Shown: positions 1-55,566 of the stretch, piece by piece | How positions within the stretch are numbered: the first letter of the stretch is position 1 | Layout: each line of letters opens with the position of its first letter | Source: Pyrenophora tritici-repentis | Lineage: Eukaryota; Ascomycota; Dothideomycetes; Pleosporales; Pleosporaceae | DNA length: 64,000 bases | Direction of reading: 5' to 3' | Assembly (NCBI RefSeq): GCF_003171515.1 | Contig: NC_089394.1 | Coordinates: 1,488,001 to 1,552,000, forward strand | Made by a program: the position numbers and the translations under genes | Notes under the pieces: model-generated | Databases searched by the model: none | What the model saw: the letters and a program-made list of their open reading frames with translations, nothing else | What the model was told of the DNA's origin: nothing

Positions 1-49
1 AATTCGATAGTACATCGCAAGCAGGATTTGACTAGTCATGAGAAGCTAT

Positions 50-3000
50 TCAAATGAATTCTTGTTTCACCCGCATTCGCTTTGAGCTGTACTTACGCTC
101 ATAGGGCTCAGAAACGCTTGGACGTTTCAAAGGGATTGCAGGTAGTGGCTTTTCGCACGTCATGTGGTCTATAGTACCGAAGGGTCGCTCAAGATTCTGA
201 CCATTGATTAATTTCGCCAAGGTAGTTGGGAAACCACTTATTAGTCTTGGAGTACTCGTAATGCCTCGAATGGAGAACGCGATAACCTCGTCCATTGTCT
301 CGGCACGGAATGTGATCCGTCTTTTGAATGGAGGGAGTCCTTTGGGAATAGTCTGAATACAGCGAACGGGGTTTCCCTGGACGAGAAACCATGAAGAGGT
401 TTCGAGCAGTTGCTCATACAAATAGCGTAGACCTTCTCGAGGCAGGTCAAGGCGACAATATATGTACCCTAAGCACAGGTAACTACCTCCCTCTAGTTTA
501 GGTAGTGCATCTAGTTCAAAGTAGAACATTGAAGCTAGCATCAAGTCAATTACCGCTGTTATAGTACCTCCATCGTTTTGGATCTTCCGTGTGGTAATAG
601 CCTTAAGATTCGGTATCTGAAGTGCATCATCCAAGCTCGGCTCTGGGCCAGTAAACTGTACATTAAGTCGATGGTATTTATGCCGTATGTTGAGATCTAG
701 GGAGTTGTAAAACCGTTTCCATGCATCTTCGCCGTTCAAGTTACGCATAAAGCTATTGAACAAGCGCACGTAAAATCGGGATCTCGTGATCCCGAGATCT
801 ACGGCATCCGCTGACGTTCCGGTCCCAAGCGATAAAGCAAAATCGGGGTATGGTTTCGCCGGCCATATGAAACGAGCTTCCCATTGAGCGATGCTCGCTG
901 GATTATTGTGTTGAAGCCCTCCATCCTGAAACATCCCCAAGCTGCGGACCGCCTGAGGTTTGAAAAACCAAGGTGCGGCTGATGTACAGCATGCCCTGAA
1001 ATCGTCAGACTATGCAAACCTTGCGATTGAAGGACACTTACGCATCACTGACAGAGATATCATCCTGCGCTTTTTCAGCGCGAACAACATCATATCCTAA
1101 TAGTCGTAAGCTAAAGCTGTCACAGTGAAGATATCTACTGACCGATGTTATCAGGACGCTTCCCCCCGTTGTAGTTAGTGAACAACCACGGTAGCGAGTC
1201 ATTAACAGCTGTTGTAGTGACAGCTACTTTAGTGTCGTTTCTCAACGGATTGAACATCTGCAGTGGGGAGTCGAATGTTTTCCTGAAAGCTTCTTGTACT
1301 GCTGCGAGACTATACTGGCCATCTTCGACATATGCCACGAGAAGTTGAAGCGCTCTTGAAATCAGTGCTTTTCGCTTGCCAAACGTTTTGGCTGCTACTT
1401 GCTCGAATCTTTGTATAGACTCAGCAGCGCTCCATTGCAGCAAGAACATACCAATGACAACAAGACCGCCTATCATTATTAGTTTGAGACTGAGTAATTT
1501 TTTAATATTCTTACCAGCCGATGTTCCACATACAAAGTCGAAGTTATCCTTCGCAGCGCATCCAAACGGGGCAAGTAAGCTGTCGAGATGTTGAAGGAAG
1601 GTCAGAGGTATCACTCCTCTGACACCACCCCCGTCGACACTCAGAATCCGTATACCCGCTGTCGGGGGGACGAATCGAAAAATTGAGTTTTTGTAATTCA
1701 CGCCACATAGGACGCATTCTGGAAGCTCATATGTGTTTCTCTCGGAGTGGGAGCGACGTCCGAATATCCGAATACACGGGTCACATAGAGCGTGACTACA
1801 TGGAAGAACCTTTTCTGGCATACGCGAGAAGCAACAGAAACACGATCGATGGCTTTTGAGGTCCGCTAAGTGGGTGTGATTCGCGTTCAATACCTCACGG
1901 TGCACATCGCTAGCAGATTGTGCGCCATCCTCGTACTTCGCAAAGATGACTCGAAACTCATGTAGTACAGCAGAGACGAACTTGCGCTGTATCTCCCTGT
2001 GCATCGTATACGAAGCAATAGCAGCTTTGCATGGATCAGCATAAAGTGAGCTAAATAGATACTCCGGTGAGAAACCTAAATATGTGAGCAGGACATCAAC
2101 GAAAATGACATATAACGTACTATGCGCGTCTGGTGGATAGCTAGATAGAAGCAGGGCTGAAGCTATCAAAGGTGCAGCGAAATGCCAGAGCCAGGCTTGT
2201 GAAGGCATCTGGTTTAAGAAGTCCGTGAGGCAAGCTTCAAGGAGATTGGTCGTGAAACCTCGCGGGCGAGAAGCACTGGCGAAATGGAATCCTGTCGTGC
2301 TATCGCTACTCATGTGGCTAAGTGCTTGCTTTGTCAAAGCTTGAAAGTGAGTATAACTAAACTGCGTAAATTTGCTTGCGCGCTCATCCATGGATGCGTC
2401 AGACATGGCTAAAAGGCGTCTCTTCAAAGCCCGTGCTCGGGCTGTGGTTGATTTACATGATTGCAGGCCCAGAACTTCAATATCGCCTATTCCTAGGCGT
2501 TTAGGCTGTTTATCCTGCGACTCGCTATTATTTTGCATAGCTTCGACAAGTAGCAGGGTGGCTTTGTTGGCCGCGACTCTCTCGTCAAATGTGTCCGATG
2601 TGGTTTCCACGACTAACAAAATGCGGGGCACCGTCGGTAAATCAGGCGCAGCCGCCGCCGTCGCAAAATCAGCTAGCCACTTTGCAGCAGCCCTTGGCCC
2701 CCCAAGATCGCTAACAAAGCAGCAGATGACACTTGAGAAGGGCGAAAAGATTCGCCCACATAGCGTCGCATTGATGTTCTGGACTTTTGGCAAAGGCCAT
2801 GAAGTTGCGGGTATTGAGTAGGTGAGAGCAGGATTTCGAGGTTGCAGGTGAGAGTTTTGCATACCACAATCGATGACGATAAGCGGCGCACACCCGCTGT
2901 ATCTAGACAGCGACCACAAAAACACCTCCTTGTGTACAGGTACTGCGATATCGTCTCCTAAGAGTCCATTCAAGAGGATGGTCTTGGATCTTCGCCCTAC

Positions 3001-3141
3001 AAAGGTTACAAAAGATGGCCGGCAGCTATTCCTAACAACACTAGAGCCTGTACCGGAGAGTGAGGTCAACCCAAGCTCATGGTACGTCAGCGTGTTCCCA
3101 CTAGGAGCTGCGTCGAAAGTAATCCACGGTGAAGGTTTCAT
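50..3141 (-). CDS. Patatin-like phospholipase with RING-like zinc finger
   Basis: Patatin-like lipid acyl hydrolase, a recurrent Starship accessory family (PLP). Four exons fit: 3141-1515, 1469-1143, 1096-1042 and 995-50, with introns of 45, 46 and 46 nt; summed exons are 985 codons including stop, so about 984 residues. A Cys/His cluster with CxxC spacing resembling a RING finger lies at about residues 450-500. The patatin domain follows: oxyanion loop DGGGVRG, and nucleophile motif GTSAGG, which is completed only when the 45-nt intron at 1470-1514 is removed. The catalytic Asp motif DGG is in exon 4 (FQDGGLQHNN). The dyad is therefore intact. The start is the first Met of the long exon; nothing upstream argues for an earlier one. 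It is divergent from the DUF3723 gene across 240 bp. The C-terminal 150 residues have no domain I recognise. Confidence 0.88.
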
Positions 3142-3381
3142 TTTTGGCGATGGTACATTTGCGCTGGGCAGTCAAAGGATTTTATGCCGTTGGGCATACA
3201 GCATTCAGTTTGCCGTTACCAGAATATGCGCAACATCCGGGTCATGAATCATGTAAACCGACCCAGTTGACGGTTACAGCCATCATGTCAGCCCTAATGC
3301 AGCTTTCTGGCTTCCCATAGCTCGGTATAGAGTCTATTTAATCCCAAGTTCGTCGGAGCGGGATGTTGACCAGATACCGCT
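3142..3381. promoter_or_regulatory. Shared divergent promoter region, patatin / DUF3723
   Basis: This 240-bp gap separates two head-to-head cargo genes and must hold both core promoters. No TATA or operator motif is convincing. Function is inferred from position only. Confidence 0.4.
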
Positions 3382-6300
3382 ATGGAGCTACCCGATATAG
3401 ACTTTGCTGCGACAAGGTCGACGTGTTTCAGAGGAGTTGCACGAGTACCACTGCATGCCTTGAACTTTCGAAACAGGCTTGTCTTGGACAAACATCGGGA
3501 ACTTTCTGAAGAAAATGTTAGACGGCTACAGAATATCTATAAGCAAGTTGGCTGCAACCGGCTAGAAGAAGAAAATGTTATCAACGCAGTCATTGCAGAT
3601 GAAGATCTAGTTGTAGAGTTGTCCTCACAAGGCAAGTCAATAGAAGATTTTCGCAATCTTCAGTGGCCACAGGATGCGCTGGATCTACCTCTCGAGTATG
3701 TAGACTGTCTTTCGGGAATGCACCGTATCGAGGCGGCGCGACGATTCTTAGATGAGAACGACAAATGGTGGGTCGTGAGACTCTTCTCTCATAGTGAGTT
3801 GCTTACCCGTGTTGAAATTGTACCTAACATTAGACAAGACACGCCCAAACCAATATTAGTACAAATCATTGAGTCGTTTGCCAACGAACAGAAGCCTTCA
3901 GACGGAGAAGTTTTCCGAAAGATACGACTATATCATAGGGAAAATGACGAAGAAGCCCAAAAACGTTGGTGGTCTCGTCTAGAGAAATCCAAACCAAAAG
4001 ATCTACGGCAGCTCCTGAGGAGACCAATGCTCATTGCTGGTTTTGACGCTCTAGTTGACATGCCAGGGCTATGGGCCAAGGTGCAACTTGGGGCGCTTCA
4101 CAGACTCTTGGTACTAAAGTGTGACGAAGTATAACATGAAATCCCTTATCCGATATTACATCCTAACTGAGAATAGGAGATGGCGCTATATCTAGACCAT
4201 ATTGCCAAAGCCTGGACTAAGATTTTGCGTTGCGGTGAAAAGACGTTACCGTTCTCTATTGTAGACGCGGTCACTGTACAAAATCTCCAGCTTCTCGCCC
4301 CTGCATACTCGGACATGGACAAAAACTTGGTAATTGAGTTGATGGAACGTGGGGATATATTCTCTTCCCTGAAGAGCGGTACTATACGGAGGACGCTTAC
4401 CGAGAACATATGCGCTTTCCCGGGGGTCATCCCATCGTTATGGGGTTTTTTTGAGATGCTCAAATACCTAGAGCCTCTTGCGGAAGCGCTTAGACATCTA
4501 TTGGGCAAGCACATGAAACGTACAATACGGTCAAGCCTTATGGGGCTGTATTTCGCCCCTAGTAAGATCATGGTTCAGACTACCGAGACTCAGGACGTCG
4601 AGATAAAAGTCGCACTCAGTCGGAAGCAAGCAGGGATGGTTGCATATACCGAGCTTTGGGCATTCTGCGGTCGCTACTTCGATGGTTTAACTGCATTCAC
4701 ACCGAGGAAAGAGACTGGAGAGCCAAAACCTACTGTGAATGGCCCTAATCCGGTAGTCTGGCAGCATCTCGCTAGGTTCGCGGTCTCTCGAGGGTTCCAG
4801 ATACCACATGCTCAAGCTCTGGTAGCGGATGAAGGGCGTTTACATTCACAACTCGCACTAGAGTACCTTCGTAAGGCAAGGCCAACGTGTCCTAGGTTTT
4901 CTGACAACGACATCCGAAAGGTACTTGATGCTGTCCCAGTAAACATGGATATTTCGCAACACCAATCCCCTCTACCGTTACCGCATCTTAGTATTGATAG
5001 GCGAATTGGTCGTCCGTTTGCACGTGACTTTGCCGAAGAGAAGAGATTACTCTTCTTTCCACACTTGTATGGGCCTGTGGTATTTGAAAATGCAAGTATC
5101 AGCCTAATGCGAAGGGATCTATTCTCGTGCATATTTGGTTCATTTACATTCGAGGTATGTGTGGCTCTAAAGTAGAAATTTAATACTAACGCGAGCCAGA
5201 CCAGTGATTTTGAATTGGCCACGAATTCCGGTGAACCAGCGCAGGATATAATGGATATGGATACCCCCTCTGAAGTACTCGGATCAGACACCCGGCTTAC
5301 TGATTTGGAGTCACGTTGCTCAAGGCTCCAACAAGAGTACCAGAGCCTTTTGTCACAGCATGACACTCTAGTAAGGAAATACGAAATCGAGCAGAGCAAG
5401 ACCGAGGGGTTAGAGATCGAGAACTTGGAGCTCCAAGCCAAATGCAGGGATCTCACCCAGAAATATTCAGCGCAATGTGAAGCAAACGAACTTGAAACGA
5501 ACATGGCTAGCGACGAAATTCGGAAAGATCTTGACAATCTACAAAATAGACACCATCACCTCGAGGATGCCTACAACCGTGTTGTACTAGAACATAAAGA
5601 CTGCGACGCGACTAAGAAACAGCTCTCCTCTTTAGCGCGACAATGGAAGGCGCAGGGGGATAAGAACCTTGAGCTCAACTCTACTTGCGCAAGACTGAAA
5701 AGAGAGCTTGAAGAAGCGCTGGCAAACCGAAATTTCGAAGCAGCAACAGTCGACAAAGGCAAATTATCAATAGTAGTGCCCGAACCTATTGAAGCAACGA
5801 CCATGTCAGCACTAGAGGACAGTGATACTACACCAACGACTGATCAACCACTATACTCTTGGGTACCGAGGACCGATCAAAGCTCCTACGAGATGTTCTT
5901 TGCCTATTGCACTGCCAACGGTGGTAGTGCGCTTCAAGGCTGGGGATCTTTGATCAGTATGCAAGCGGAGTCGGCGTTACCCAGGATCGAACAACTTCTA
6001 CACCAGGCTGAAATGGAATTCGGCAGTGATCAGTATGGAGCAATGACAATCTTAGGCAAGATCATCATACCAACATCAGCCGAATATGTATTCCAATGCT
6101 TCGGGCCAACGCACCAAACCATCTTCATTGGACCAAACTCTGTATTATCAGCCTACGTCCCTGTCATTGAAAGACGAGCTTCTTCATCTCAAACAGGCTC
6201 ATCAGTCATGACAATCATAGATGCTGCTGCACAAGCAACCAGCAAAGCGCTTGTGAAACGGCAGCGACAGGAAGACGATTCCGAAGACGACGAGATTATA

Positions 6301-6465
6301 AATGACCGAGGATTTGGGAAAGAGTTGACCAGGTATACCACAAAAAAGAGCATCCCAAAGCGAAGGATATTAAGATTGCAAGGGCCCGAGGTACCCAATA
6401 TGAGCACTGAGAGTAGAGGGCATATAGATAGTGAACATGCTAGCGAGCAGCAAAAGCTAACGTAA
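3382..6465 (+). CDS. DUF3723 family protein
   Basis: Starship-associated DUF3723 protein; molecular function unknown. Three exons fit: 3382-4128, 4177-5154 and 5200-6465, with in-phase introns of 48 nt (branch CTAAC) and 45 nt (branch TACTAAC), giving about 996 residues. The N-terminal two thirds holds the conserved family region, including a segment with CLSGMHRIEAARRF and the tryptophan-rich QKRWWSRLEKSKP. The last exon starts with a long heptad-rich coiled coil (about residues 585-720), then a globular stretch, then a basic C-terminus (KKSIPKRR) that may be a nuclear localisation signal. No frame damage is seen. Family identity is by recognition of the sequence pattern; a profile search would settle it. 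Confidence 0.82.
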
Positions 6466-7128: not shown

Positions 7129-7626
7129 CTTGAACGATGATAGGAGAAATCGAGTATGCACGGTGATGGTGTTGGTACGAACGTTTGGTGAGAGGGTTTT
7201 CTGGTTGCCGGTTACTGCTGCGCGTGTTCTGATGGCTGATAAGGCGATGCCGTATTATAGCACAATCCAGGAAACGGTTGTTCGCAGGGAGGCGCAGGCT
7301 GCACCTCGGCAGCGCGGAACACGCTAACAGCACTCCGGCGGCTAAGCATGTTGGAACCAACCGGAAATCTTGCCTCGCTTGTGCTACTAAATCAGTGCTT
7401 ACATGGCGGCTAAAAGATAGCCTGTGCGCGATTGATGTGGGGTGTCAGAAACAGGGACCCGTATCGCATCAGTCATCCGCAGTTGCCGGACTCATGAGAC
7501 AGGCCCCCAAGATGGTATCCAGAACGCCGCTTCCTGTCACCTGGTACGATAACTGACGCCATATATCTACCGTGGAGTGGCTATCTTCGCGAATTCCGGT
7601 CACCCGTGATACCTAGTTAAATAATT
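7129..7626. other. Intergenic, no gene seen
   Basis: About 500 bp between the divergent MADS-like gene and the ferric reductase gene. Short open frames here have no coding-like composition and no recognisable repeat. It presumably holds both promoters. Confidence 0.5.
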
Positions 7627-9353
7627 ATGCAGATTATCGTTGTCTACGCCATTGCGTACAGCTCAGCGATAGGCCTTCTAGTTGGTTGGAGGCTCTCACA
7701 ATGTCTCACCGCGCAGGCCCGTAAGCATATCTTCACCACTTTCACGAAATGGTTCATATATACCCTTGTAGCACCAAGGTTCAACGGAAGCTCAGATGTT
7801 ACGATTATGACGGGGACCATCATCGTCCTTCTTATCATTGCTAATATCATTGGATGCTCTCTTTCCGTCCAAAGTCGACTTGAGTTGTCGCTTCGTCTAG
7901 CGAGGCTTAGCGTCACTAATCTCGTGATTCTCTATCTCGGTGGCAGGTCCAACATTGTCTTGGATAAAGTTTTTCGTCTTTCTCATCCAGAGCATCAACT
8001 ATTGCACCGATGGATTGGGCGTGTCACAGTTACGGAAGGCTTAATCCACGGGACTCTTGGAATCCTTCAATTATCATCTACTGTCCAGCCGATTGAACTT
8101 TCGGTATGCTCTCACTGTTTTGCATCAACACCACGGATCTAACATGACATGCAGCTATTGATCGTTGTAGGGGTTATTGCATTAACTTCAGTTCTTTACG
8201 TGCGTCGCAGACTATATGAGATATTTCTCAAGACACACTCTCTCCTCTCGGTCGCTACATTAGTCCTACTGTGGCTTCACGTTGGAGTCCCGAACACCTA
8301 CGTACTCACGTGTTTTGCCACTGCAGGTGCTATCTATCTGCTGCAAAAGCTGCTTTGGCTTATCCAGTTTCTATATCGAAATCTTGGTTCTGGTCCGTCG
8401 TCTCGAGTATCTATCTCGCGCTTCTTGCACGAGGGGGTAGGACAAGAGGTTTTACAGCTTCAAATCGACACAAAACGGCCATGGAATGCCAAGCCTGGCC
8501 AATTCGTCTACCTTTCTTTGCCTCATATTCGAAGCCTTGGGCTTGGACTATTAGAATCACATCCCTTCATGGTCGCGTGGGCTTCAAATAACCAAAAAGG
8601 AAAAACAGCCAGTGTTATTCTCCTTGTACAGTGCTGTACAGGTTTTACCCGTAGGCTGCAGAGTGCTGGCACCCTGAAATCTGCATTCATCGATGGGCCT
8701 TACGGTGGTGTCAAAGCAGACTCGTACAGAGGATACGATAAAGTCTTGCTTATGTCAAGCGGTATAGGGATCGCGGCACACTTGTATACCGCTCGATATC
8801 TACTTATATCACACAATCAACAAACTGCGCGTGTCAGAAGATTGACACTAATTTGGTTATTAGAGACGCAAGGTATTCTCAGATGCCAGTCAGATACTTC
8901 AAAAGGTCCCCGCTAAAGTACAACAGACCAGATGCGTTGGGCAGAAGAGTTCCTTTGTGCTTTGAACGATATGGATCAAAGACAGATTCTTACAATCTTC
9001 TGCTTTTATCCTAGTCACACTGAGGGTTCTTCCGAGGGCAGAGTAACCAGTTTCCAATCACCTAGATCTCGGATCCTACCTCTTTCTACCGCACTTGACA
9101 TGTCTTGGTTTATCGAAAGCGAGTGGGGTGCTGAAGCAGGTAACATGCTAGTTGCAGGTAGGTTACTTCTGCCTTTCTCTTTGCATAACTGACCTTGAAA
9201 GTTTGTGGAAGCCCTCAGTTCGAGTCTCGAGCGAGAAAGGCTGTCAGGTCAAGTTCGCATGAAATAGATTTCCAGAATAGCGTTTTCCAGCCCAGCGAAA
9301 CACAAGCAAGTAAACTGTCAGGATTTAGGTACTACCAAGGGAAAGAAGCTTAA
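7627..9353 (+). CDS. Ferric reductase (FRE/NOX-type transmembrane oxidoreductase)
   Basis: Plasma-membrane ferric/cupric reductase: moves electrons from NADPH through FAD and two haems to extracellular metal. Four exons fit: 7627-8103, 8155-8872, 8927-9157 and 9202-9353, with introns of 51, 54 and 44 nt; the phases close on a TAA at 9351 and give 525 residues. N-terminal half: several hydrophobic helices with paired histidines (HRWIGRVTVTEGLIHG, then FLKTHSLL and LLWLHV) as haem ligands. FAD domain: HPFMVAW near residue 295. NADPH domain: GPYGG near residue 340, SSGIGIAAHL, and the C-terminal GNMLV-VCG motif, which is rejoined only by removing the last intron. No damage seen. It is a standard Starship accessory family. 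A hAT transposon lies 55 bp downstream of the stop. Confidence 0.88.
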
Positions 9354-9819
9354 TATGTAGTAAGAGTTCACAAGCACATATGTAGAGGTACCTAGGTAGT
9401 CTATAAATCAGTGATCGGAATGGTCTGGTCTGACTTGGTCTTGGTCTGGTCTAGACCGCCAAGACTTGGTCTGGTCTGGCGATTTTTTGAGACCGTGGTC
9501 GGACCGGTCTAGATGATCGGACCGGTCCGGCTATAAATAGGTCCACGTGACTAGATCTTAGACTAATCTAGCCAGAAAATTTAGCACAATATGAGTCATT
9601 AAGATCAAGGTAAGTCTTCTACTTACATAGAACAATCAAGTCCTTAACAACCTACTTATATACTATTGTTATGGAGCCTTCAACACCAACCTCACCGTCC
9701 CCATCGAATATTATAAGACTAGATTTAACGTCTCTTACTCCATCTCCTATCCCCACGTCATCACCCACCCTATACTATCACCCACTCCTATTCAATATCA
9801 CGAATCTCCAGATGAGTTC

Positions 9820-12137
9820 GTGCAGGGCGGTATCACGTACGTGAAACGTGCAATAATTGCAAGGAAGGATTTCCGTCAAGGTACATCACACATCTGGAAG
9901 TACGGACTCCAATACATTCGAGATAGCGATAAGAAAGAGGTGTATTACTGCCATGAGTGCAGGGTTGGGAAGAGCAAGCAAGAGTTGTTTGTCATCAATG
10001 GCACTTCTAGGATCCGGAATCACCTGGAACAGAAGCACCAGATTGATCCCCAGAGTGGCATCAAGCGAAAGGGTTCTGTACGGAAGTCTATAATCGACCA
10101 GCAAAAGGATGGGGCTGCTTCCAGCATCTTTTTCTGGAAGGAGTCAGTAGAGAAGTTTAAAGAGCTTCTAATTCGTTGGATTGTGTACTGCCATATCGCC
10201 TTCTTTCAATTAGAGAACCAGTACTTTCGTGAACTACTCCTCTTTTTAAATCCGGCACTACTCAACCACCTCCCGAAGGCTGCGAAGACTATCCGAAGCT
10301 GGGTAATGAATGCATTCATATCGAAGAAGCAACAGCTTAGGGAGGACCTACACCATTCACGGAGTAGGATCTCTATCTCCTTTGATCTCTGGACTTCACC
10401 AAACCCTTACGCTATCCTAGGCGTCGTCGCTATGTGGATTGATACTACCGGCATGCGACGTGTTACCGCTTTAGGTATGCGACGTATATACGGCGAACAT
10501 ACTGGAGAGAATCTTGGATCGGTGGTCCTTGAATTGCTGGAAGAATACGACATTAGCGGAGATCAGATTGGATACTTTATGCTGGATAATGCCTCGGCAA
10601 ATGATACCGCTGTTGAGTTTATACTCAAGGATCTCTGCCCATGGATGAAGTCAAAACAACGTCGTCATCGCCGGCTGCGTTGCTTGGGCCATGTCATCAA
10701 CCTCTGTTGCCAGGCGTTCCTTATGGGGCGAAACTGTGAGAAGTATCTTGCGAAGCTGGAGAAGCATCATCAACGTGGCGACTATACGAAGGTGGAAGAG
10801 CTCTGGAAGAAGTTCGGATGTTTGGGTCGTCTTCACAACCTGGTGCGATACATCAGGCTTACTCCACAACGGCGTGAGGAGTTTGCTACAATTATTATCG
10901 GCGGAGATCTTTCGCAATTCGACGGGCTTGAGCTTATCCAGAACAACTCGACCCGCTGGAACTCATGGTTTTATTCGATTACACGTGCATTAAATGTTCG
11001 AGAACGTTTAGAGCTCTTCTCGGCTCGTCATGTACCTGGAAAGGGCTCCGTAGGGATCGCGAACTTTAAGCTTGATGGACAGCACTGGTTTGAGCTTGAA
11101 AAGATTGAACTCGCTCTCAAAGACTTCTATGCTGCAACTTTGCTTTCTGAAGGTAAGAAGACGTCACTTGCGGACTGGTTTTCAACTTTGGACTGCCTTC
11201 TCCGGGAGATAAGCGAGACGAAGGATCACTACCACGACATCCACACTGAGGACGATAACAACTTTACATGGAAGTACCTTCAAGGCTGCGCTGATGCTGC
11301 TTGGTTAAAGTGCGTTGAGTACTATAACAATCAGCAGCTGAATTGGCAAAATCGATTCCCTGAAGATACTGACCTTCCACCGGCATATTATGCGGCTCAA
11401 ATCCTTGATCCATATCGCAAGTGGGGATGGTTCAGGCAAGAGTGGGTTCTTCATGGCGACGAAGAGAAGAAGAGGTGGTTTGAAAACGCACAATTAGCGG
11501 TGAAGCATCTCTGGGAGACAGAGTATAAGGGAAGGTACCCTGTCGAGATGCTGCCACCACCAGCCAGGAAGGAGAGAGATCCTGACCCAGCATTTGATCG
11601 CCAGCGGGAACATAAGCGCATTCGAATAGACGCTCCAGTTTCTACAACTGATTTGTATGAACAATACATCTCTACTGACCGGCTTCATAACGAAGAGGCA
11701 GGTTGCAATGAGGCTATTGCGTACTGGCTATCTCGCTACGACTCCCAACGAGATCTCGCTCGCTTCGCTCTAGACATGTTTGCGATCTCGCCTATGTCGG
11801 ATGAATGCGAACGTCTTTTTAGTAGCGCGAAGCTTACTATCGTCGATCGCCGTGGTAGGCTGAAGCACAGTCCGCAACAATCAATTAAGTGGGTCCTAGA
11901 AGGTTCAGATTGGATTGATTGATTACCGCTTTAAGCCTAGTAGTTACCTATAGGAGTTTAAGCCCTACCTAGATAGGTAAGTGGGTCTAGGAGAGTGACC
12001 GGATTGAATTGATTGTTGCGGAGTCTAGGCTGAAGGCAGATATTATAGAAGCGTGCGAGTGTCTCCGGGCCTGGTATGGAAAGCCCCAAGCTGAGGGGAA
12101 CAGCGATATCGAGGATAGTGAGAACGAAGACGACTAG
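9820..12137 (+). pseudogene. hAT transposase, C-terminus interrupted by a MITE
   Basis: DDE transposase of the hAT superfamily. The open frame runs 9820-11922 (about 700 residues). It has an N-terminal BED-type zinc-finger-like segment (YYCHECRVG then RNHLEQKH), an RNase-H-like catalytic core with ISFDLWTSPNPYAILGVV and GYFMLDNASANDTAV, the CLGHVINL block, and the C-terminal dimerisation region (FAISPMSDECERLFSSAK). After RRGRLK the frame enters a 162-bp MITE and stops within it. Beyond the MITE the same frame continues from the duplicated target (RLKADIIEACECLRAW) to a TAG at 12135-12137, so the insertion replaced about 30 native C-terminal residues. No in-frame ATG is obvious before 9820, although the frame is open upstream; the start is unresolved. 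Confidence 0.88.
11866..12027 (+). mobile_element. 162-bp hAT-type MITE, copy A (inside hAT transposase)
   Basis: Starts CACAGTCCGCAACAATC and ends GATTGTTGCGGAGTCTA, imperfect inverted ends. Flanked by the 8-bp duplication GGCTGAAG at 11858-11865 and 12028-12035. Same length and nearly the same sequence as copies B, C and D. Confidence 0.92.
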
Positions 12138-12308
12138 ATTGACAGTCAGTAGTAAAACACATTTCCTCGGCTTCCTTCTTTGCTTCAGCCTCATTCTTGG
12201 CGGTCTTGTTGGTCGGACCGGTCTGGTCGGACCGGTCCTTATGTAAGCACCTGGTCTGGTCTGGTCTGTACCCTCAGACCAGACCAGACCAGACCATTCC
12301 GATCACTG

Positions 12309-12807: not shown

Positions 12808-12815
12808 GTTCACCG

Positions 12816-37013: not shown

Positions 37014-37030
37014 AACAAGTCACGTAAGGC

Positions 37031-44810: not shown

Positions 44811-47800
44811 TCACGGATTTCCGTCACTACATTCCGCTCGCCAGCTATTCAGCATGTAAAAAGACGACTGTGTGTAGGGATGTTGCTCGCCAAGGACCTG
44901 CTGGCGCGATTGGAAGCATTTTTCTATTAGTGCAAGAGCCTCCACGTGACGAGCTTGTGACTGTAGCATGAAGGCGAGATTGTGCATGCTGGTCAGCGTA
45001 GAGGGATGGCCCGCTCCCAGCTTCATCTTGCGAGTCTCCATCACTTGCACATTCAGCTTCTCGGCGTCATCCCATCGGCCTTGGTTCCAGTATGTCAACG
45101 CCAGATTGGCCATGCTGGTCAGCGTAGAGGGATGGCTCGCTCCCAGCTTCGTCTTGCGAGTCTCCATCACTTGCACATTCAGCTTCTCGGCGTCGTTCCA
45201 TCGGCCTTGGTTCCAGTATGTCGATGCTAAGTTGGCCATGCTGTTCAGCGTGTCGGGATGGTCTGCTCTTAGCTTCGTCTTGCTCGTCTTCATCACTTGC
45301 ACCTCCAGCTTCTCAGCGTCGTTCCATCGGCCTTGGCTCCCATATGTCGACGCCAGATTGGCCATGCTGGTCAGCGTAGAGGGATGGCTCGCTCCCAGCT
45401 TCGTCTTGCGAGTCTCCATCACTTGTACCTCCAGCTTCTCAGCGTCGTCCCATCGGCCTTGGTTCCTGTATGTCGACGCTAGGTTGGCCATGCTGGTCAG
45501 GGTGTCGGGGTGGTCCGCTCCTAGCTTCGTCTTGCGAGTTTCCATCACTTGCACATTCAGCTTCTCGGCGTCGTTCCATCGGCCTTGGTTCCAGTATGTC
45601 GATGCTAAGTTGGCCATGCTGTTCAGCGTGTCGGGATGGTCTGCTCCTAGCTTCGTCTTACTCGTCTTCATCACTTGCACCTCCAGCTTCTCGGCGTCGT
45701 TCCATCGGCCTTGGTTCCTGTATGTCGATGCTAGGTTGGCCATGCTGTTCAGCGTGTCGGGATGGCCGGCTCCTAGCTTCGTCTTGCTAGTCTTCATCAC
45801 TTGCACCTCCAGCTTCTCGGCGTCGTCCCATCGGCCTTGGTTCCTGTATGTCGACGCTAGGTTGGCCATGCTGGTCAGGGTGTCGGGATGGTCCGCTCCT
45901 AGCTTCGTCTTGTTCGTCTTCATCACTTGCACCTCCAGCTTCTCGGCGTCGTTCCATCGGCCTTGGTTCCTGTATGTCGACGCTAGGTTGGCCATGCTGG
46001 TCAGCGTAGAGCGATGGTCCGCTCCCAGCTCCGTCTTTCGAGTTTCCATCACTTGCACAAACAGCTTCTCGGCGTCATCCCATCGGCCTTGGTTCCTGTA
46101 TGTCGACGCTAGGTTGGCTATGCTGGTCAGGGTGTCGAGATGGTCCGCTCCTAGCTTCGTCTTGCGAGTCTCCATCACTTGCAAATTCAGCTTCTCGGCG
46201 TCGTTCCATCGGCCTTGGTTCCAGTATGTCGATGCTAGGTTGGCTATGCTGGTCAGCGTAGAGGGATGGTCCGCTCCCAGCTTCGTCTTGCGAGTCTCCA
46301 TCACTTGCACATTCAGCTTCTCGGCGTCATCCCATCGGCCTTGGTTCCAGTATGTCAACGCCAGATTGGCCATGCTGTTCAGCGTGTCGGGATGGCTCGC
46401 TCCCAGCTTCGTCTTGCGAATCTCCATCACTTGCACCTCCAGCTTCTCGGCGTCGTTCCATCGGCCTTGGTTCCAGTATGTCGATGCTAAGTTGGCTATG
46501 CTGGTCAGCGTAGAGGGATGGTCCGCTCCTAGCTTCGTCTTGCGCGTCTCCATCACTTGCACGAATAGCTCTTCCGCCTCCTCATAACGTCCGTCACTAT
46601 GTAGAGTCATAGCACATTTCCATGCGAGATGTAATCTTTCATTATCGTCTTCGTTCATCTGGCTGTGCGAGAGAGCGTATTGGGCATGTGGGAGGAGTCG
46701 TCTCCACTTGCTTCTGTTACTATGATTATCGTTCGGGAACACACGAAGTAGCTGTGTGATAGTGCGCTGAGTCCATTGTCTAAGTCCCTGCGCTTGTAGC
46801 TGCTTGCGTAGAGCTCGATGGACTAGTCGATGAACATCGAGTGCAGACTCAGCAGGTCGCCTGGTGACGAGCGCATACTTGTCTAGTACTCTAATAGCAT
46901 CTTCTCTTGCTTGCGGCGAGGCTGCCTCTAGAAGATCGAGCGAGATATCCTTTCGTTCTACGCATGCAGCAAGAAACAGATAGTCTGCAGCAAGCGCATT
47001 ATCATGCCTGATCTCATATATAGAGAGAAACAGCGTAGCTGCTACAGGGTCTTTCACGCCAACACCTTGTAGCTTACCCTCAGACAGGTCGCCGCTGTGT
47101 TCGATAGCAAGTTTTTTATGATTGTCCATTCGTGATCGATACTCCTGCACCGTCATACCGCTAGCCTTTATACAGGCCGCTGCTTGTATGACTGCTAGAG
47201 GAAGATACGATAGCGCTCTTAGCAAGTGCTCGGCTTCCTGCTGCTCAGTGTTCGCGAGTGGCCTCGCTAAGCGGACTTGCAGCATCTTCAGCGCCGCATC
47301 TAGTGTCAGCTCTCGCAGCGATATGATGTTCTGTGGATCGAGCGCTTGAGCTGTGTCGGTGTTGGTTGTTGTGAAAATGACAGAACATAGCTTAGACTGC
47401 GGGAGACAATTGGCTAAGTCTGCGGCTTCTGTCGTGGACGAGCCGCTAGATCGCCAATTGATGTGCTCTGTGTTGTCGAAGATTAGCAAGCAGTGCCGCG
47501 CACCAATCTCTACTACACAGCGTTTTACAAGCTGCTTTATGTCGGCCTGATCATCGTCCCAGCCTGCAATATTGAGCTTCTGCGCAACACTTGCATACGA
47601 CTGGTAGAGACTGACTTTATCGCTCGCATCCATCCAGAGGACCGAACAGTTCTTGTTCTTCTGCCTTGTTCTGTGTGCAACCTCGAGCGCGAGCTGCGTC
47701 TTGCCAGTTCCGCCCGGCCCAACTATGGCTAGTGTAGTAGTGGTGTGTTCGTTGCTGAAGAGCTTAGCTTCTAGCTCGGCAAGCTGCGACTCTCGGCCTA

Positions 47801-48575
47801 CGAAGCGGGGATTTTGTGAGAACTGGATGATCGATGGTGCGTTATTAGTTTCCTCTAGTTCAGCCTGCAGTCTGCTTCGTGCACTCTCCTGTCCTTCGCC
47901 ATACGCGGTGGGCATAGAGACGCAAAGAATTCCAAGCAGACAGTACACAATGTCTTCTTCTTCTTTTGTTCTGCGATTTTCGACCCATCGCCTTCGCTCA
48001 GATGTATTAAACTCGTGCAAAGGACGGTTACGTAGTGCTGCGAGCGGAATGTTCGTGATGTCGTGTATAAGCTGGTCGAGCGATTTTTTGTCGCCTATGC
48101 GCCTTCTTTCACGCGAGAAGAACTCGACTGACACTGGCGCAATCAGCTCTTGGAGCGTCCACCCCCGAGTAAACCATGCACTTGCACGGAACGACGCCTC
48201 CCAGTCGCTGGGTTGGACTGGCTCTGTAGCAGTCGAGACCGAAACGTCTGACAAGAAGACGTAGCACCGTGCCGCGTTCTTGTACCACTGGAACATCGAG
48301 TTGATCGCCTTGGAGCGCTCGTTGTTATTCCACCTGTCGATGCAGCATGTGTCAATCCAGAAGTAATGCAGCCCATCCTGCACCGCTTGATTGGCACAGA
48401 ACCTAAGCTTTCGATAGCCTTCTTCCTTCTCCTTGTAAGTTCCACTTGATATGTCTTCGATAAGGACCTCCGAGTCGCTCCATCTGTGCGACAGAATGGC
48501 GTAGCGCGGGGTTGTTTTGCCGCGGAAATCTGTCAAGACAAGCCTTCCTAGCGCGTTATAGTGGAGAAGCCGCAT
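44811..48575 (-). CDS. HET-domain NOD-like receptor (HET / NB-ARC / TPR), 1254 aa
   Basis: An intact single-exon gene. N-terminal HET domain (residues 1 to about 230): RYAILSHRWSDSEVL, FWIDTCCIDRWNNNERSKAINSM at its core, then the WFTRGWTLQELIAP block; HET domains trigger cell death in fungal non-self recognition. NB-ARC: P-loop VGPGGTGKTQLALEV near residue 285, LLIFDNTEH (Walker B), VIFTTT, and SYLPLAVIQAAACI. C-terminal sensor: about 13-14 TPRs of 42 residues, each of the form VQVMETRKTKLGADHPSTL plus NLASTYWNQGRWNDAEKL, with strong identity between units. Start Met at 48575 directly begins the HET fold (MRLLHYNALGRL). Complete and without stops, unlike the first NLR. The variable positions within repeats are presumably the recognition surface. 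Confidence 0.92.
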   Translation of the reverse strand: MRLLHYNALGRLVLTDFRGKTTPRYAILSHRWSDSEVLIEDISSGTYKEKEEGYRKLRFCANQAVQDGLHYFWIDTCCIDRWNNNERSKAINSMFQWYKNAARCYVFLSDVSVSTATEPVQPSDWEASFRASAWFTRGWTLQELIAPVSVEFFSRERRRIGDKKSLDQLIHDITNIPLAALRNRPLHEFNTSERRRWVENRRTKEEEDIVYCLLGILCVSMPTAYGEGQESARSRLQAELEETNNAPSIIQFSQNPRFVGRESQLAELEAKLFSNEHTTTTLAIVGPGGTGKTQLALEVAHRTRQKNKNCSVLWMDASDKVSLYQSYASVAQKLNIAGWDDDQADIKQLVKRCVVEIGARHCLLIFDNTEHINWRSSGSSTTEAADLANCLPQSKLCSVIFTTTNTDTAQALDPQNIISLRELTLDAALKMLQVRLARPLANTEQQEAEHLLRALSYLPLAVIQAAACIKASGMTVQEYRSRMDNHKKLAIEHSGDLSEGKLQGVGVKDPVAATLFLSIYEIRHDNALAADYLFLAACVERKDISLDLLEAASPQAREDAIRVLDKYALVTRRPAESALDVHRLVHRALRKQLQAQGLRQWTQRTITQLLRVFPNDNHSNRSKWRRLLPHAQYALSHSQMNEDDNERLHLAWKCAMTLHSDGRYEEAEELFVQVMETRKTKLGADHPSTLTSIANLASTYWNQGRWNDAEKLEVQVMEIRKTKLGASHPDTLNSMANLALTYWNQGRWDDAEKLNVQVMETRKTKLGADHPSTLTSIANLASTYWNQGRWNDAEKLNLQVMETRKTKLGADHLDTLTSIANLASTYRNQGRWDDAEKLFVQVMETRKTELGADHRSTLTSMANLASTYRNQGRWNDAEKLEVQVMKTNKTKLGADHPDTLTSMANLASTYRNQGRWDDAEKLEVQVMKTSKTKLGAGHPDTLNSMANLASTYRNQGRWNDAEKLEVQVMKTSKTKLGADHPDTLNSMANLASTYWNQGRWNDAEKLNVQVMETRKTKLGADHPDTLTSMANLASTYRNQGRWDDAEKLEVQVMETRKTKLGASHPSTLTSMANLASTYGSQGRWNDAEKLEVQVMKTSKTKLRADHPDTLNSMANLASTYWNQGRWNDAEKLNVQVMETRKTKLGASHPSTLTSMANLALTYWNQGRWDDAEKLNVQVMETRKMKLGAGHPSTLTSMHNLAFMLQSQARHVEALALIEKCFQSRQQVLGEQHPYTQSSFYMLNSWRAECSDGNP
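44930..46640 (-). repeat. 13-14 near-identical 126-bp TPR-coding repeats
   Basis: The 126-bp unit recurs across the 3' half of the HET-NLR gene. Units alternate in small blocks (ETRKTKLGADHPST, KTSKTKLGADHPDT), a mosaic typical of unequal exchange or conversion within the array. Confidence 0.9.
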
Positions 48576-49430
48576 GGCGTTTGCAGTTTTAGCTTATTAA
48601 TGGTGTTGAGAGTAGAAAGGCAAGGGAGCGACAGAGCGAAGTAGGCAGAGGAAGCTTACGCTGGGTTACTGTGAAGGCTGCCTGTTGAGGCAGTACATGC
48701 GACCAGGCTGAGCGGATGCTGGGAACATGGAGCATCCTGCGCCGCCACGCCTCACAACTTGCGCTGGACAGTGTTCGCTACGTGAACGCACGTCAGACTA
48801 CTGCGCACGCAGGCAGAGTGCCAGCGGATAGAGCAGTCCTACTTAGATTGCCGTCGTAGCATCTCGCGAGACTCATGTTATCGAGGAAGGGTGCGCACCG
48901 ATGTAGGTTGTGTAGGCGTAGGGATACTGTCTCGTGGTACACACTTTACGCACTATTTCGCAGACGTTCGACGAAAAGTCGATTACTCTCTTATAGCGAA
49001 AGTAGTACAGGCCTAAGCTAAGTGCCCTTAATACCAATTTCTACGAAAAATAAGCTGCTTTGCGAGGAAATTAGTGGAAGGAGTATGAAGCGCGGCTGTC
49101 TGCAACGCACGCGTGCACGTCTGGATCAACAGATGCCTGCAAAATCGGTAATAAGAGTTGTGTAGGGCGGACACAGATATCTTAGCACGCTACTGCAAGC
49201 TGCCGCGTACTAAGAGCTGCTAAAGACGCACAGCCGGTTGGACACGAACAGGCAGCAAGGAAATGTTAAGAACGAGGCGGACACCAAAGAGATGCCGTAG
49301 ATTAATCTAAAATAGTTCTATAACAACTACATTCTATGTATCTCTAGCAACCAGAACAGTCTTCGTGATTATCGTGGGCGGCCGCCCATACCTATTGAGC
49401 TTGTTACGAGACATTTTTATAGGGGAAGAA
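48576..49430. other. Gene-free stretch upstream of the HET-NLR gene
   Basis: No coding-like frame or repeat recognised; it must contain the NLR promoter. Confidence 0.45.
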
Positions 49431-50659
49431 TTAACCTACTTCTTCGTGACTAAAGCAGCTATACGCAAGCGAATGTCCTTGCCGCTCAACAAGTATGTAA
49501 ACCATAGTTTTAGACGGTAATATCTGGCATTCGAACGCTTGGAGTCCTTCGATATGGGGTCTAGAGTGAAATGCCTGATTATGGACGAAAAGGCCAGTAT
49601 AGTAGAACTTGTAGATGTTAGATATTAGACTAACACTTTAGGTATGACTTACGTTTGGAGGTAGGATATCTAGGTGATGAACCACTTCTGGGAAACCAAA
49701 AGGCAACTCGAATGCCTCATCCTCACTATCATGTTCGACTCCATCATGATGACAACGATGCACACAGAAGCTCGGTGGTTGGAGCTTTTCCGGTAATTGG
49801 GCCCAGTCATGGATAGTGACTTCATGGTCATGTGGTTCACTACCACTATAGGCGGGAGGGTCCTCAGAGACCACTACTGCGTCGTCATTCTGAATACTCG
49901 ATAGAAGAAGCATTTCGGGGAAGTTTATAATGACCGAGCATTCGGAAAATACAGTAGAGGGAGTTTGTGGTATAGGAACGTACAGGAACGGTTCTAGCTC
50001 TTGGGCTAGGGACGTGTCTTGTGGGGATAGTAAATTGAACTCTGCGTTAGTTATGCCAGATGCATGAGCAATATGCTCCCCTACTATCAGTACGTTCTTT
50101 CTAATTTTTAGCAATGATATAGGTAGTTATTCTATGATGCGCAGCTTACGGGTGGCTCAGTGATACTTGAGTCGTAAATTTGGACTTCTCCCGGCCTCTT
50201 GATTTCTATATATACGCTAGAACCAGAAGATTGAGAGTATCGCTTAAGAAGAAGGAAGAGGATATCTTCTTCATCAAGTGGTGGGGTACTCTGTAAGAAC
50301 TCTTCGTACTCGCATATAAGCCGTTCAATGTTGCTGAAAGCTTGCTTGAATTGTATATCGACGACACCTGTATAGTCGAAGTTCGCTGTAGGCGAACCAG
50401 CTCTGCCACCACGAAATGATTCTTTCATTATATCGAAGTGTGCTCGGTAGTCTTGTGTATTGGGTGCACCATTCGTTGAAAAGGTAGACTGGTATCTAGC
50501 GTTTCGAATTTTCCAACGGAGGGCGTCTCGCTCGCTTTCTGTTGTACATGACTCAGTGTGGGATAGCACTTTGGACGTAACGTTAGCCAGGACAAGGAAC
50601 ATATGGTTGCCGAACAGCCGTCTATAATACAGCTTCTTGCAACAGCGTGCTATAATCAT
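49431..50659 (-). CDS. Hypothetical three-exon protein, about 376 aa
   Basis: Exons 50659-50150, 50096-49653 and 49607-49431, with introns of 53 nt (donor GTAAGC) and 45 nt (donor GTAAGT, branch TCTAAC), join in phase. The first exon is helical and charged and ends in a small strand-rich piece (SSVYIEIKRPGEVQIYDSS) reminiscent of the end of MADS-like cargo proteins. The second is acidic with a His/Cys cluster (CVHRCHHDGVEHDSEDE). The third ends TMVYILVERQGHSLAY. A later Met (MFLVLANV) is an alternative start. I cannot assign a family. Confidence 0.5.
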
Positions 50660-50755
50660 ATAGATACATTCTCAAACCAACGCTGCTACAAAATTTTACA
50701 TTCAAACTATCATGACTATTGTACTAGCCTATCGTCGAATCATTCGCGTGACCGC

Positions 50756-51707
50756 GTCGACTCAACGGAAGCTTTGCGATAAGCTTTTTCGGAGGAGTAC
50801 AATGCGAAGATACAACACGCTGTCAAGCACTGATTCTTGGGATTATCGAGGTACAATGCCCGTGGATATTAAGGGATAAAACAGGCTAACAGAGATATAG
50901 ATATAGGCATCTAGAGATGTACAATGTAGAAGACAAATGAAACCATCTACCATCATATATGCTCGCTTCAATACATCATGTCCTTCTTTCACTTTCCTGA
51001 AACATCTGAACCATTATATGCCGGCTCGCCGCTGGTAATTGCCACGTTTATGACTTTCTCGTGAGCCTAGGCCGGTCAGCTATGATCTTGCAGCGGTGCT
51101 AGAAGCATACACTAGGCTCGAATGCTAATCGAGAAGCCGGGTCGACCGAGTTGTACACATAGAATCGACCATCAATCCGAATCTTCATATACACTTCGGC
51201 TTCTGCTTTCTGGCAGAGTTGACTTGCTTTGCTCGACTCAACGGAAGCTTTGCGATAAGCTTTTTCGGAGGAGTACAATGCGAAGATACAACACGCTGTC
51301 AAGCACTGATTCTTGGGATTATCGAGGTACAATGCCCGTGGATATTAAGGGATAAAACAGGCTAACAGAGATATAGATATAGGCATCTAGAGATGTACAA
51401 TGTAGAAGACAAATGAAACCATCTACCATCATATATGCTCGCTTCAATACATCATGTCCTTCTTTCACTTTCCTGAAACATCTGAACCATTATATGCCGG
51501 CTCGCCGCTGGTAATTGCCACGTTTATGACTTTCTCGTGAGCCTAGGGGTCAGCTATGATCTTGCAGCGTGTGCTAGAAGCATACACTAGGCTCGAATGC
51601 TAATCGAGAAGCCGGGTCGACCGAGTTGTACACATAGAATCGACCATCAATCCGAATCTTCATATACACTTCGGCTTCTGCTTTCTGGCAGAGTTGACTT
51701 GCTTTGC
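50756..51707 (-). repeat. 476-bp tandem duplication
   Basis: Two adjacent copies, at about 50756-51231 and 51232-51707, nearly identical apart from small indels such as CTAGGCCGGTC versus CTAGGGGTC. The unit carries the 3' end of the MADS-like gene and its downstream flank, so the left copy holds an orphan gene tail (frame at 51099-51230). Confidence 0.88.
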
Positions 51708-52291
51708 GGAGTAGTGGCAGGTATGCTTTGGGTACTTTCACGGGGATCTGTAAAAAAAATCAGCTTTGTCAAGAACTAGAGGAAGGTTCTAGTACAAAGT
51801 GCATGTCCTTGCTTTTATCCGCTCTGGCCTCGCCTAGGTCTTTGGCCGTATCTGGGTGTTGTGGACAAGTACATGGTTCAGGCGGAAGACCGTTTAGCAA
51901 TCTAAGGATGTCGTGCGCTTGCGACTCAAGTCGTTGGCGAAGAGACAATGTTGTAGACGGAGTTTTGTCGAGCTCTGCGAGGATATCGTGGAGTTGTGAT
52001 TCGAGGAAGCCTCGGTGGGCTTGTTTGTCTGGCTCGGGGAGTTGCTGGCTTAGGTCGGAAAATCGGGGGGGACTTAGAGGGGTCGTATTTAAGACGAGGT
52101 TGCGGATGCAATAGCTCGGGATGGGCGTCAGACTGTGCTTGTTGCTCTGTATGAAGCGGAGGTGGCAAGGCTAGTGGAGAAGGAGACCGCGATAGCACGG
52201 GTAAGGGGAATGGTGTTGGGGAACGGTTCATGCGCCTCCTAAGCTTGGCGAGGCGACGCTCAGACCACTCGGATTCCTTAGGCGAACCCAT
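51574..52291 (-). pseudogene. MADS-like cargo protein with a homopolymer frameshift
   Basis: The first exon starts at 52291 (MGSPKESEW) and should run to donor GTACTA at 51796; a 48-nt intron leads to the last exon, 51747-51574. The exon is one base too long to stay in phase. The conserved frame after 52070 (FLESQLHDILAELD, RLESQAHDILRLLNGLPPEP) is reached only by losing one base, and a C7 run (G7 on the plus strand, near 52066-52072) sits exactly at the switch. The C-terminal exon has the MADS-like block LLRKASQLCQKAEAEVYMKIRIDGRFYVY. Either a real frameshift or a sequencing error in the run. The terminal exon is duplicated to the left. Confidence 0.6.
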
Positions 52292-52528: not shown

Positions 52529-55068
52529 TTATCCCTGCAACTCATTATCGCAGTCCTGCAACCCGCTGTTCATGTCACTCGTGCTATCCTCCATGTCATC
52601 TAGGTCCTCCGGCATTTTCCGCTTTCCCGTGGCTCTGCGAGGTCCGAAAGGTGGCATGCCGTGGACTTCTTCGGCATGGCTCCAAAACTCCGCTTCAGAG
52701 TCCAGGCTGCTCTGGCAGTGTGGATGTGGGCATTCAGATAAAGGTGGTAGTTGTGCCAGATGCTTCTTCATGTGTTTGTGCAGATCAAAAGCACTATCGA
52801 ACTGCATGAAGCGGTCTGGCAATGGTGCGTTAATGTCGCCTAGGCACAGCAGGCAATGTGCAGCTACCACTACTACACTACCAAGGCGTATAAGCCCGCA
52901 GAAGTTTGTAAGCTCTGGGAAGTGCTCGAGTCTGATATGCTGTTCCCATTGCTGGTTGGAGGGGCACCACCTATCGTGCTCGAAGCAATAGTGCATCTTT
53001 GTACGTGTCGTCCATTCGTTCGGAACTCGATGTTTTTCTGAAACATGGTAGGCAAGCTCTTCGTGGCTCTTGAAGGTCTGACAGCAAGCGTTCCAGAGGC
53101 ACTGGTGGGACCGCATATCCTTGAGGTGCCTTGTCATATGGAGAGAGTTCGAGCCGCAATGTTTGTTACGGAAGCTGTAGTTGCAGTCGTGCCAAGCACA
53201 ACGGTTGACAGAGATGTCAACAAGCAAGTCAAGCTGGCTTGATTCTTATCGATTGCAGATCACAGACCATTCTCTGGGACGTGCCACTGTGCACGAGCCT
53301 CTATATTGTCTGTGATCTGCAATCGATAAGAATCAAGCCAGCTTGACTTGCTTGTTGACATCTCTGACGGTTGATGAAATTGAATTGTCTGGTCATATGT
53401 TCACGTGCGTCTTTAATGTGCTGCCTACGAGCACAATTAAGCAAATGTTCGTTCATACGGTCCGGTCTCGATCTACTGGAGTTAGTCCTGTTCCCTTCCC
53501 TCAAGGTAATGGTACGTACTTCTTAGTGAATTGATGTCCACACACACTGCAGCAATTATCCTCTGTCGGCTCAGCGGATTGGTATACGTATCGCTCTTTT
53601 TTTGGGTGAGCTAGTTTTATCATAGGCTGGAGAATATCGCTAAGTGGAATTTCTCTCCTGCTAATCGCTGTGCTGTTGTCTGGTGCAACGCTATTCCTGG
53701 AGTAGGAGTATATCAAATTTGCGATTCTCTCCCGTTCTGGCTCAAATTTCCACAGCGCCTTAAGATAACGCGATGGATAGCGTAGAGGATTCGAGCTTGT
53801 ACTTTCAGAATCCGAAGCCGTTTGGTGAGATGCTGTGACTGCGTACTCAGGAGCCAATAGCTTCCCATCAAAGAAGTCTCCGCGCTGCTTACGGTATGCA
53901 GCCGTTCTTGATTGGCGGCGTAATGCATACTCTTGGCTTGGAGTACGTTCTGGAAGAGTAACGACCGGGCTATCAGTTAAATCCGCGTTCCTACTTGGGC
54001 GATCCGTAAGTTGAGATCCAGGTGGCATAGGTGCTAGTAGGTTTCGTTTTGACATCATAGAGGTGTTTTCGTCGATAAGTTCTGATTTTTGCTCTCTCCC
54101 ATGGACCATGGATTGACTGTCCACCCCAACGATACCAGATATATAGTACATTACTGTATCATCGTTGGTATGGCCCATTAATAGTCTCCTCTGGGCAGGT
54201 GTAGCTGTCTCTGCAAAATAGTCAGCTAAGCTCAAGGCACCGTATTGTATAGGTTGCTTCTTACTTTCTACTGCTTTGCGAATGCTTTTTGTTGTTTCGA
54301 TGGCCCTTGCGATTGCGTAACCGTAGGTGGAGAAGGTACCCTGTGTATGTGCCATTTTGGTATCGCACTAGATCGATATCCCCGTAAAGGAGTCCTTCGT
54401 TGCTGTGCTTCCATGCTCCTGACTCAATGAACTCACCAGGGCGGCTGCCTAATAGAGTCATAAGTACGACTGAGAACGCCAGCTGTAGGCGTGCTCGTGG
54501 ATGTGGGTGTTGATATTCATCGCACATCCACATAAACTGGATCAGGTCTTCTGCTACGGGCAAAGGAGCAATTGGTTTTGTGTAAGCGCCAGTTGCAAGC
54601 TCATCTTTCTGCACGAGATCCTTTTGAATGAATATTTCGAGCTCCTTGTTCTGTAATGGACTATACTGGTAGCCAGTATAAAGCTTGATGGCTCGTTTGA
54701 GCGACGATAACCGATTTCGAATTGTTGTATCCGTGATGTTCTCTTCCAGCTGCCCTGTTCTTGTTGCTGCAAGCCAACGAAGGAAAAGCTGGATTCGAAA
54801 CACTGTTGGCGCTGATTCAATTGTAGAACTTTTGGGCTCTTGTAAAACTGATTCAGTGAATCTATATTATGAGCGAAGGTAACTATATCACAGGTAAAAA
54901 CACTTACTCTGCCCATAGAGACATTGTATACTCATGCGCCTTAAAGCTTGACGGGATCATCATGTTTTTGATATCATCAGCTGTAAGCGGAGCAGGTGCT
55001 TTTTCCTGATGAACAAGAGAGCGTAGATGCGAAAGATCGACCTTGGACTTTTTCTTAGGAGGAGCCAT
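52529..55068 (-). pseudogene. Starship captain: DUF3435 tyrosine recombinase, disrupted
   Basis: Exon 1 starts at MAPPKKKSKVD (55068) and ends at 54908; a 46-nt intron (54862-54907) follows. Exon 2 gives an N-terminal core-binding part (RIQLFLRWLAATRTG) and the catalytic block LLGSRPGEFIESGAWKHSNEGLL, with the first catalytic Arg, typical of DUF3435. The frame then breaks near 54355-54240. A second segment continues with TATPAQRRLLMGHTNDDTVMYYISG, containing the family MGH-YYIS region and a candidate catalytic Tyr. The usual intervening 100 or so residues, with the second Arg motif, are not visible. A C-terminal Cys/His region (CSVCGHQF, then HLLNCARRQHIKDAREH, then several C2H2-like fingers, CAWHDCNYSF onward) is split by a 158-bp MITE. 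DUF3435 proteins integrate and excise whole Starships; this copy should be inactive. Confidence 0.85.
53209..53366 (-). mobile_element. 158-bp long-TIR hAT-type MITE, copy 2 (inside captain)
   Basis: Begins CAGAGATGTCAACAAGC and ends with its reverse complement. Target duplication ACGGTTGA at 53201-53208 and 53367-53374. Same sequence as the copy at 26193-26350 in inverse orientation, so recent. Removing it with one target copy joins the flanking captain frames without a shift. Confidence 0.93.
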
Positions 55069-55566
55069 ATTGATGCTAGGAGGGAAAGAAACTCGACGGT
55101 ATGAGAGAGTGAAGATTGTGGAAAGGAGGCGGGTCATCGTCAGAAACTTAATCGCCGCCAGTATCAGAACAGCACACACTAAGATCCATGGCGCATACAT
55201 TTCCTAGTGCTCAATGTCCGTTAATAGTCTGAAGTGGGCTGTGGTGGGCGCTGTGCCGTAAACTGACAACAGGATCGCGATGACCGAAAACGGTTACTAT
55301 ACCAGTCAATTGACCTGGAAACGGTACAACGAGAAGTGACGGATCGCGAGGGAGAACTAGTTCTCAGTGTCCTATGGTCGTATGGGGAAGATATGGTGCG
55401 CTTGGATATTATATTCATGACGAAGGTGATGTAAGGGGAAAGGATGTATTTGATCTCGGATTTTAACTGTAAATTTTCGTGCGTTTAGGAGTGGAAGTTT
55501 AGGGAGGACAATGAGAAGTAAGTTCTTGAATTGAAGTAAAAATGTAGTGGTAGTAGCGGGTTCCAT
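55069..55566. other. Region holding the Starship right edge and captain promoter
   Basis: About 500 bp between the captain start and the first host-gene coding sequence. Only short frames; no known repeat. Captains usually start within a few hundred bases of the element edge, so the terminus probably lies here or just inside the host gene. TTAC-type motifs (targets of many Starships) occur but none can be chosen without the other end. Confidence 0.5.

Follow-up and report, generated by a model that had tools for sequence, protein, structure and literature searches.

A probable derelict and rearranged Starship at a 5S rRNA gene of Pyrenophora tritici-repentis

The 64,000-nucleotide stretch analyzed here (the window, C5:1488001-1552000) belongs to a genome of 40.9 Mb in 41 contigs, among them those called C1-C10, which was taken as Pyrenophora tritici-repentis M4. 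We found that a derelict and rearranged Starship probably occupies the window up to position 55,356, with its captain end and its cargo, and that its family inserts into 5S ribosomal RNA (rRNA) genes. Its Starship origin at such a gene has good support, because a captain-like gene points inward from 288 bp inside the edge, the terminal repeat recurs as its reverse complement at two of the three sister 3' ends read, the target is a 5S gene, sister copies share the same end, and cargo is common to two other loci. The initial annotation had proposed a large Starship with its captain. The Starship origin held, whereas the captain proved to be broken, the cargo turned out to be a rearranged mosaic, and 200 kb of further sequence yielded no other end.

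The captain-side edge was placed at window position 55,356, where the element begins and its first bases read TTCTCCCTCGCGATCC. The 5' terminal repeat TCTCCCTCGCGA occupies 55344..55355 on the minus strand. Directly outside the element, 55357..55384 (minus strand) is a fragment of a 5S gene, nt 2-29, which forms the host half of the split target (BLAST, 100%); a full copy was assigned to the 5S family by Rfam (RF00001). The DUF3435 gene is the first gene inside the edge, lies on the minus strand and has its ATG at 55068. Homology to the sister copies on C10, C1 and C4 ends at window 55,384-55,391, and the same 5' junction in a 5S gene, with a few mismatches, was found at no fewer than five loci (C5, C10, C1, C4 and C9). 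For the target on C10, an intact duplicate is identical over 180 bp, of which 151 are flank. Beyond the edge the flank is housekeeping in character, with Rrb1 (98% to its nearest cluster), a Ras-family GTPase and EXOSC1/CSL4. The edge itself falls at 55,356 and not, as previously drawn, at 55,566. A comparison of synteny by locus tags yielded no neighboring tags among the 120 Rrb1 relatives listed, of 939.

The far ends of the family were examined across the genome by searches that score the best candidates only (the best 40 of 116 in one), so that all counts of ends are lower bounds. The family 3' end was found at seven or more places, the query included, and six of these touch a truncated 5S gene. 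With a 5S query, 40 matches were obtained, 28 beginning at nt 1 and 12 later; of the late starters, a family 3' end adjoins six, lies about 555 bp from a seventh and is lacking at the other five. At the three 3' ends read (C5:173k, C6:2892k and C4), the 5S sequence is taken up again at about nt 21-24. In reverse complement, the terminal repeat matches at 12/12 positions at C5:173k and 11/12 at C6:2892k, and it is mostly deleted at C4. Because the 5' junctions are shared and the 3' ends touch truncated 5S genes, we conclude that the family targets 5S genes. The target and ends are thereby supplied for a Starship family of a wheat pathogen, and empty-site tests in sequenced isolates become simple.

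Integration would have proceeded by the captain, a Cre-like tyrosine recombinase, recombining the element with a 5S gene around nt 24-29. The captain end would keep 5S nt 1-29, and the far end would receive the remainder of the gene and a direct repeat of about 6 bp, a length read off the sister junctions rather than a matched pair. All of the 0-55 kb stretch would have entered as the cargo of one element, whose far end may since have been lost or moved by rearrangement.

The dispersed 5S genes also present a trap, as they can mimic the terminal inverted repeats of a giant element. A single intact element of 217.6 kb, from C5:1325760 to window 55,384, could be drawn between perfect inverted repeats CATACGACCATAGGACA, with the 17-bp motif inverted at both places. 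However, Rfam identifies the left copy as a complete 5S gene (RF00001, 80.6 bits, model 1-120 of 120), and the motif, with which 5S genes start, is found genome-wide, which refutes this reading. The 217-kb candidate between inverted CATACGACC motifs was accordingly dropped, its left site (-162 kb) being an intact 5S gene. Another candidate, a split 5S gene at C6:2853213-2854885 with an insert of about 1.5 kb, was rejected as a family member, as it is without the family's ends. It was also noted that tandem 5S pairs about 190 bp apart occur amid the dispersed single copies, at C2:4389627-4389953, C3:3027862-3028184 and C5:676899-677220.

The captain-like gene (52529..55068, minus strand) is a pseudogene of a DUF3435 tyrosine recombinase with a C2H2 tail, and is recognized by Pfam in two weak pieces (27.9 and 22.0 bits; cut-off 25.8). 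DUF3435 matches were strong in three of three relatives and weak in this broken copy. The tyrosine-recombinase fold and catalytic residues are present in the captain family, and a PDB sequence search with the family gave weak matches only, among them XerA (E 0.024) and zinc fingers. Compared to the C10 copy, the captain of the window is not intact: about 391 bp are missing at a junction at 54276..54278 (minus strand), where C10:2181951 and C10:2182340 meet. This deletion takes out the second Arg box (the YxxR box), and the deleted stretch is retained in the C1 copy. We take the names of the recombinase boxes to apply here beyond the residues given by PMC12506042. A miniature inverted-repeat transposable element (MITE) of about 160 bp (53208..53368, unstranded), with many genomic copies, lies within the zinc-finger region and is absent from the C10 copy. 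Given the deletion and the MITE, the window copy does not encode the complete recombinase of its relatives; this reduces the autonomy of the copy, not its Starship origin.

An alternative is that the captain was a small stand-alone tyrosine-recombinase transposon targeting 5S genes, similar to a Crypton, and that its neighbors were pre-existing genes of an accessory compartment. Crypton-type transposons are small and use a tyrosine recombinase as their mover. Consistent with such an origin, no 3' end was found nearby, and the C1 copy ceases to match within the captain, at window 53,554 (C1:5044233). However, the C10 locus follows the window collinearly from the edge and past the captain, through the adjoining gene 2, the gene at 50.5-51.2 kb and pieces of the HET-NLR, so that, unlike in Cryptons, the captain is followed by more genes, at least in the C5 and C10 copies. 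On C4, a 5' and a 3' end also lie in one orientation 41.4 kb apart, and no further copy of the terminal repeat occurs in the 264 kb read, with up to one mismatch allowed. We therefore consider the stand-alone transposon quite unlikely.

Cargo shared with C9 and C10 also speaks to the Starship reading. The gene at 50550-51232 is 98% identical to its C9 copy and 95% to its C10 copy, and the HET-NLR pieces match C10 at 95-96% and C9 at 94%. Window 21405-24834 matches C10:2.095-2.099 Mb (94-98%), to the left of the C10 captain, and window 23344-25425, the kinase-like portion, matches C9:89.7-91.8k at 97%. Across C9 81-122 kb, identities of 94-98% were found to the 50.5-51.2 kb gene, the HET-NLR, the kinase-like gene and the segment from -2035 to +215, which holds a methyltransferase and the end of the patatin gene (window 1-215, 97%). 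Weaker C9 matches were seen in the patatin gene (73%; window 1501-1820, C9:132.8k) and to the left of the window (82-86%). The cargo from -2 to 55 kb thus recurs in pieces on C9 and C10 in changed order, and looks mobile but rearranged. Gene 2 (51769..52291, minus strand) has no Pfam family, and its frame is interrupted compared to the C10 copy. With that copy as query, six matches were obtained among 112 candidates, three of them named Pyrenophora proteins (one PtrM4_105610) and three distant (41-47%). As gene 2 is retained next to the captain in the C10 copy, it is a candidate captain companion.

Several observations weigh against the interpretation of the region as the cargo of one derelict Starship. 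BLAST and pattern searches of the 200 kb to the left gave neither a 3' end nor a rightly oriented 5S remnant, and the only other 3' end found on C5 lies in the same orientation at 173 kb, 1.37 Mb away, in a different 5S subtype. Shared cargo differs in order and orientation between C5 and C9, and close copies of the DUF3723 gene and the ferric reductase are absent from the C9 and C10 loci. No family 3' end adjoins five of the 12 truncated 5S matches, although at least one of these, C3:308495, lies near a 5S start and may be a diverged copy. The two C4 halves differ at the repeat (GAGAAAAAG vs GAGAAAACAAG), so that even this pairing rests on distance and orientation. The initial annotation had treated one continuous region as one element and proposed leftward extension to its other edge; this was run over 200 kb and yielded no edge, and the region is hence not shown to be a single element. 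Composition and repeat-induced point mutation (RIP) indices likewise gave no boundary, with four of 66 bins of 4 kb being RIP-like and none of these in the window, using cut-offs from general background.

It is possible, if doubtful, that the interval is a graveyard of several Starship pieces and transposons beside one captain, and not one element's cargo, a reading that overlaps with a derelict Starship in allowing for rearrangement. The shared pieces lead to C9, C10 and C1 with inversions and differing identities, and the transposon load is heavy. However, the C9 pieces matching -2 to 51 kb fit in about 41 kb, with the family 3' end (C9:213463) 91 kb further. The load itself comprises hAT, long interspersed nuclear element (LINE), Copia and small-repeat DNA, which make up about 15.3 kb (28%) of positions 1-55,356 among the repeat matches listed (200 of 248). 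A hAT transposon (9408..12309, plus strand) contains a nested MITE at 11866-12027 and has near-identical copies to the left. It is followed by a LINE retrotransposon (13570..19597, plus strand) with RVT_1 and endonuclease matches, and by a Copia-type retrotransposon (31511..37231, plus strand), named from our reading of its open frame; beyond Pfam matches, LINE and Copia are the names we presume to fit these open frames. Since the 190 bases compared at the two Copia ends are identical and the hAT copies are 99.9-100% alike, these transposons were recently active.

This kind of element is already known, through Osiris for the 5S target and Sanctuary for the full accessory set, and the window copy is derelict. 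The Osiris Starships of Aspergillus fumigatus, which belong to the Enterprise family, target 5S rDNA and break up the gene on insertion (PMC12153272). The 5S rDNA target recurs here, but in another host lineage and in a derelict copy. The Osiris paper ties direct repeats of more than 6 bp to 5S targeting (PMC12153272), and about 6 bp are deduced here. In Sanctuary of Bipolaris sorokiniana, the captain lies about 350 bp from the 5' edge and has a C-terminal DNA-binding domain, and all conserved accessory families are carried (PMC12506042), features that the present element shares. Unlike the window copy, Sanctuary has the direct repeat ATWHCT, not 5S, has both ends known and is mobile in natural isolates (PMC12506042). 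An earlier suggestion that a full accessory set is uncommon is weak in view of Sanctuary.

P. tritici-repentis itself carries the Starships Horizon (143 kb) and Icarus (294 kb), with similar accessory genes (PMC9594970). Icarus, like the window copy, is without a working captain, and its stretch is described as one that does not align to M4; Horizon, in contrast to the window copy, has a captain and a defined target (PMC9594970). The main text of PMC9594970 does not use the term "5S rRNA", and no 5S-targeting Starship in Pyrenophora was found in the literature listings and passages searched.

The point of interest in this family is that most of its ends are unpaired. Among at least 12 recognized ends (five 5' and seven 3'), the C4 pair is the only one with matching orientation and no more than 700 kb between its ends on a single contig. 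This excess makes it testable whether giant transposons seed chromosome rearrangements, which have been reported in P. tritici-repentis (PMC9594970). It is possible, if doubtful, that 5S-targeting Starships have acted as breakpoints in this genome, with their two ends parted by chromosome rearrangement. The flanks of the 5' junction at C10:2.18 Mb and of the 3' junction at C6:2.89 Mb are joined at one intact 5S gene at C10:2.11 Mb, whose upstream flank is identical to that of the junction and whose downstream flank is 96.5% identical. As a counterpoint, copies of the C10:2.11 Mb 5S unit share one flank each (C1:9.875 Mb and C4:2.619 Mb), so two separate insertions that each lost one end would also fit. 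It was noted separately that C10:2111.7k, C1:9875k and C4:2618.6k hold one 5S unit with one or both flanks in common, a segmental duplication that supplies empty-site duplicates.

The genes named by the initial annotation (captain-like DUF3435, patatin, DUF3723, ferric reductase, two NLRs and a DUF6601 gene) were all recovered with Pfam, and the accessory families NLR, PLP, FRE and DUF3723 are all represented among the cargo. Both exons of the patatin-like gene (50..3171, minus strand) match PF01734 (32.0 and 21.2 bits; cut-off 27.7), and the gene has a weak RING match. The DUF3723 gene (3370..6465, plus strand) matches PF12520 at positions 1-179 and 180-508 in its portion at 3370-5172, and has a 71% paralog at C6:1654916-1656426. 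By our intron reading, the ferric reductase (7621..9330, plus strand; PF01794, PF08022) is a complete gene; disruption by the hAT was ruled out, as the gene ends before it, and no second genomic copy was found at the sensitivity of the genome search used. A kinase-like gene region (23185..25425, minus strand) reaches 25.5 bits for Pkinase, below the Pfam cut-off. A 302-aa open frame with no named family (30063..30971, plus strand) has, by our own reading, a hydrophobic C-terminus.

The DUF6601 gene (38162..39226, minus strand; PF20246, 284 bits) is the divergent neighbor of an NB-ARC/TPR NLR (39473..43218, plus strand; Pfam). This unit, 37987-42467, is duplicated at C1:8134377-8138875 (94%); lying head to head and duplicated together, the two genes form a possible paired module. 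The HET/NB-ARC/TPR NLR (44811..48593, minus strand; Pfam) is a single open frame of 1260 aa. One or more genes without assignment occupy 49638..51707 (minus strand), of which 50550-51232 is common to the C9 and C10 loci. They include a tandem duplication of about 476 bp (50757-51232 / 51233-51707; 99.4% by BLAST) that is single in the C10 copy, and for which Tandem Repeats Finder reported nothing at 49.5-52.6 kb. On the other side of the edge, the gene adjoining the insertion contains a perfect 361-bp tandem duplication (two copies, 100%; window 56481-57204) that breaks its frame and may be genuine or an artifact of assembly. To the left of the window are the methyltransferase, a third NLR of NACHT/WD40 type (C5:1,444,923-1,448,837) and an EST1-domain gene with a 79% relative at C7:1.674 Mb. 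Beyond these genes the sequence is rich in transposons, and ordinary genes, among them an enoyl-CoA hydratase, are encountered about 173 kb out.
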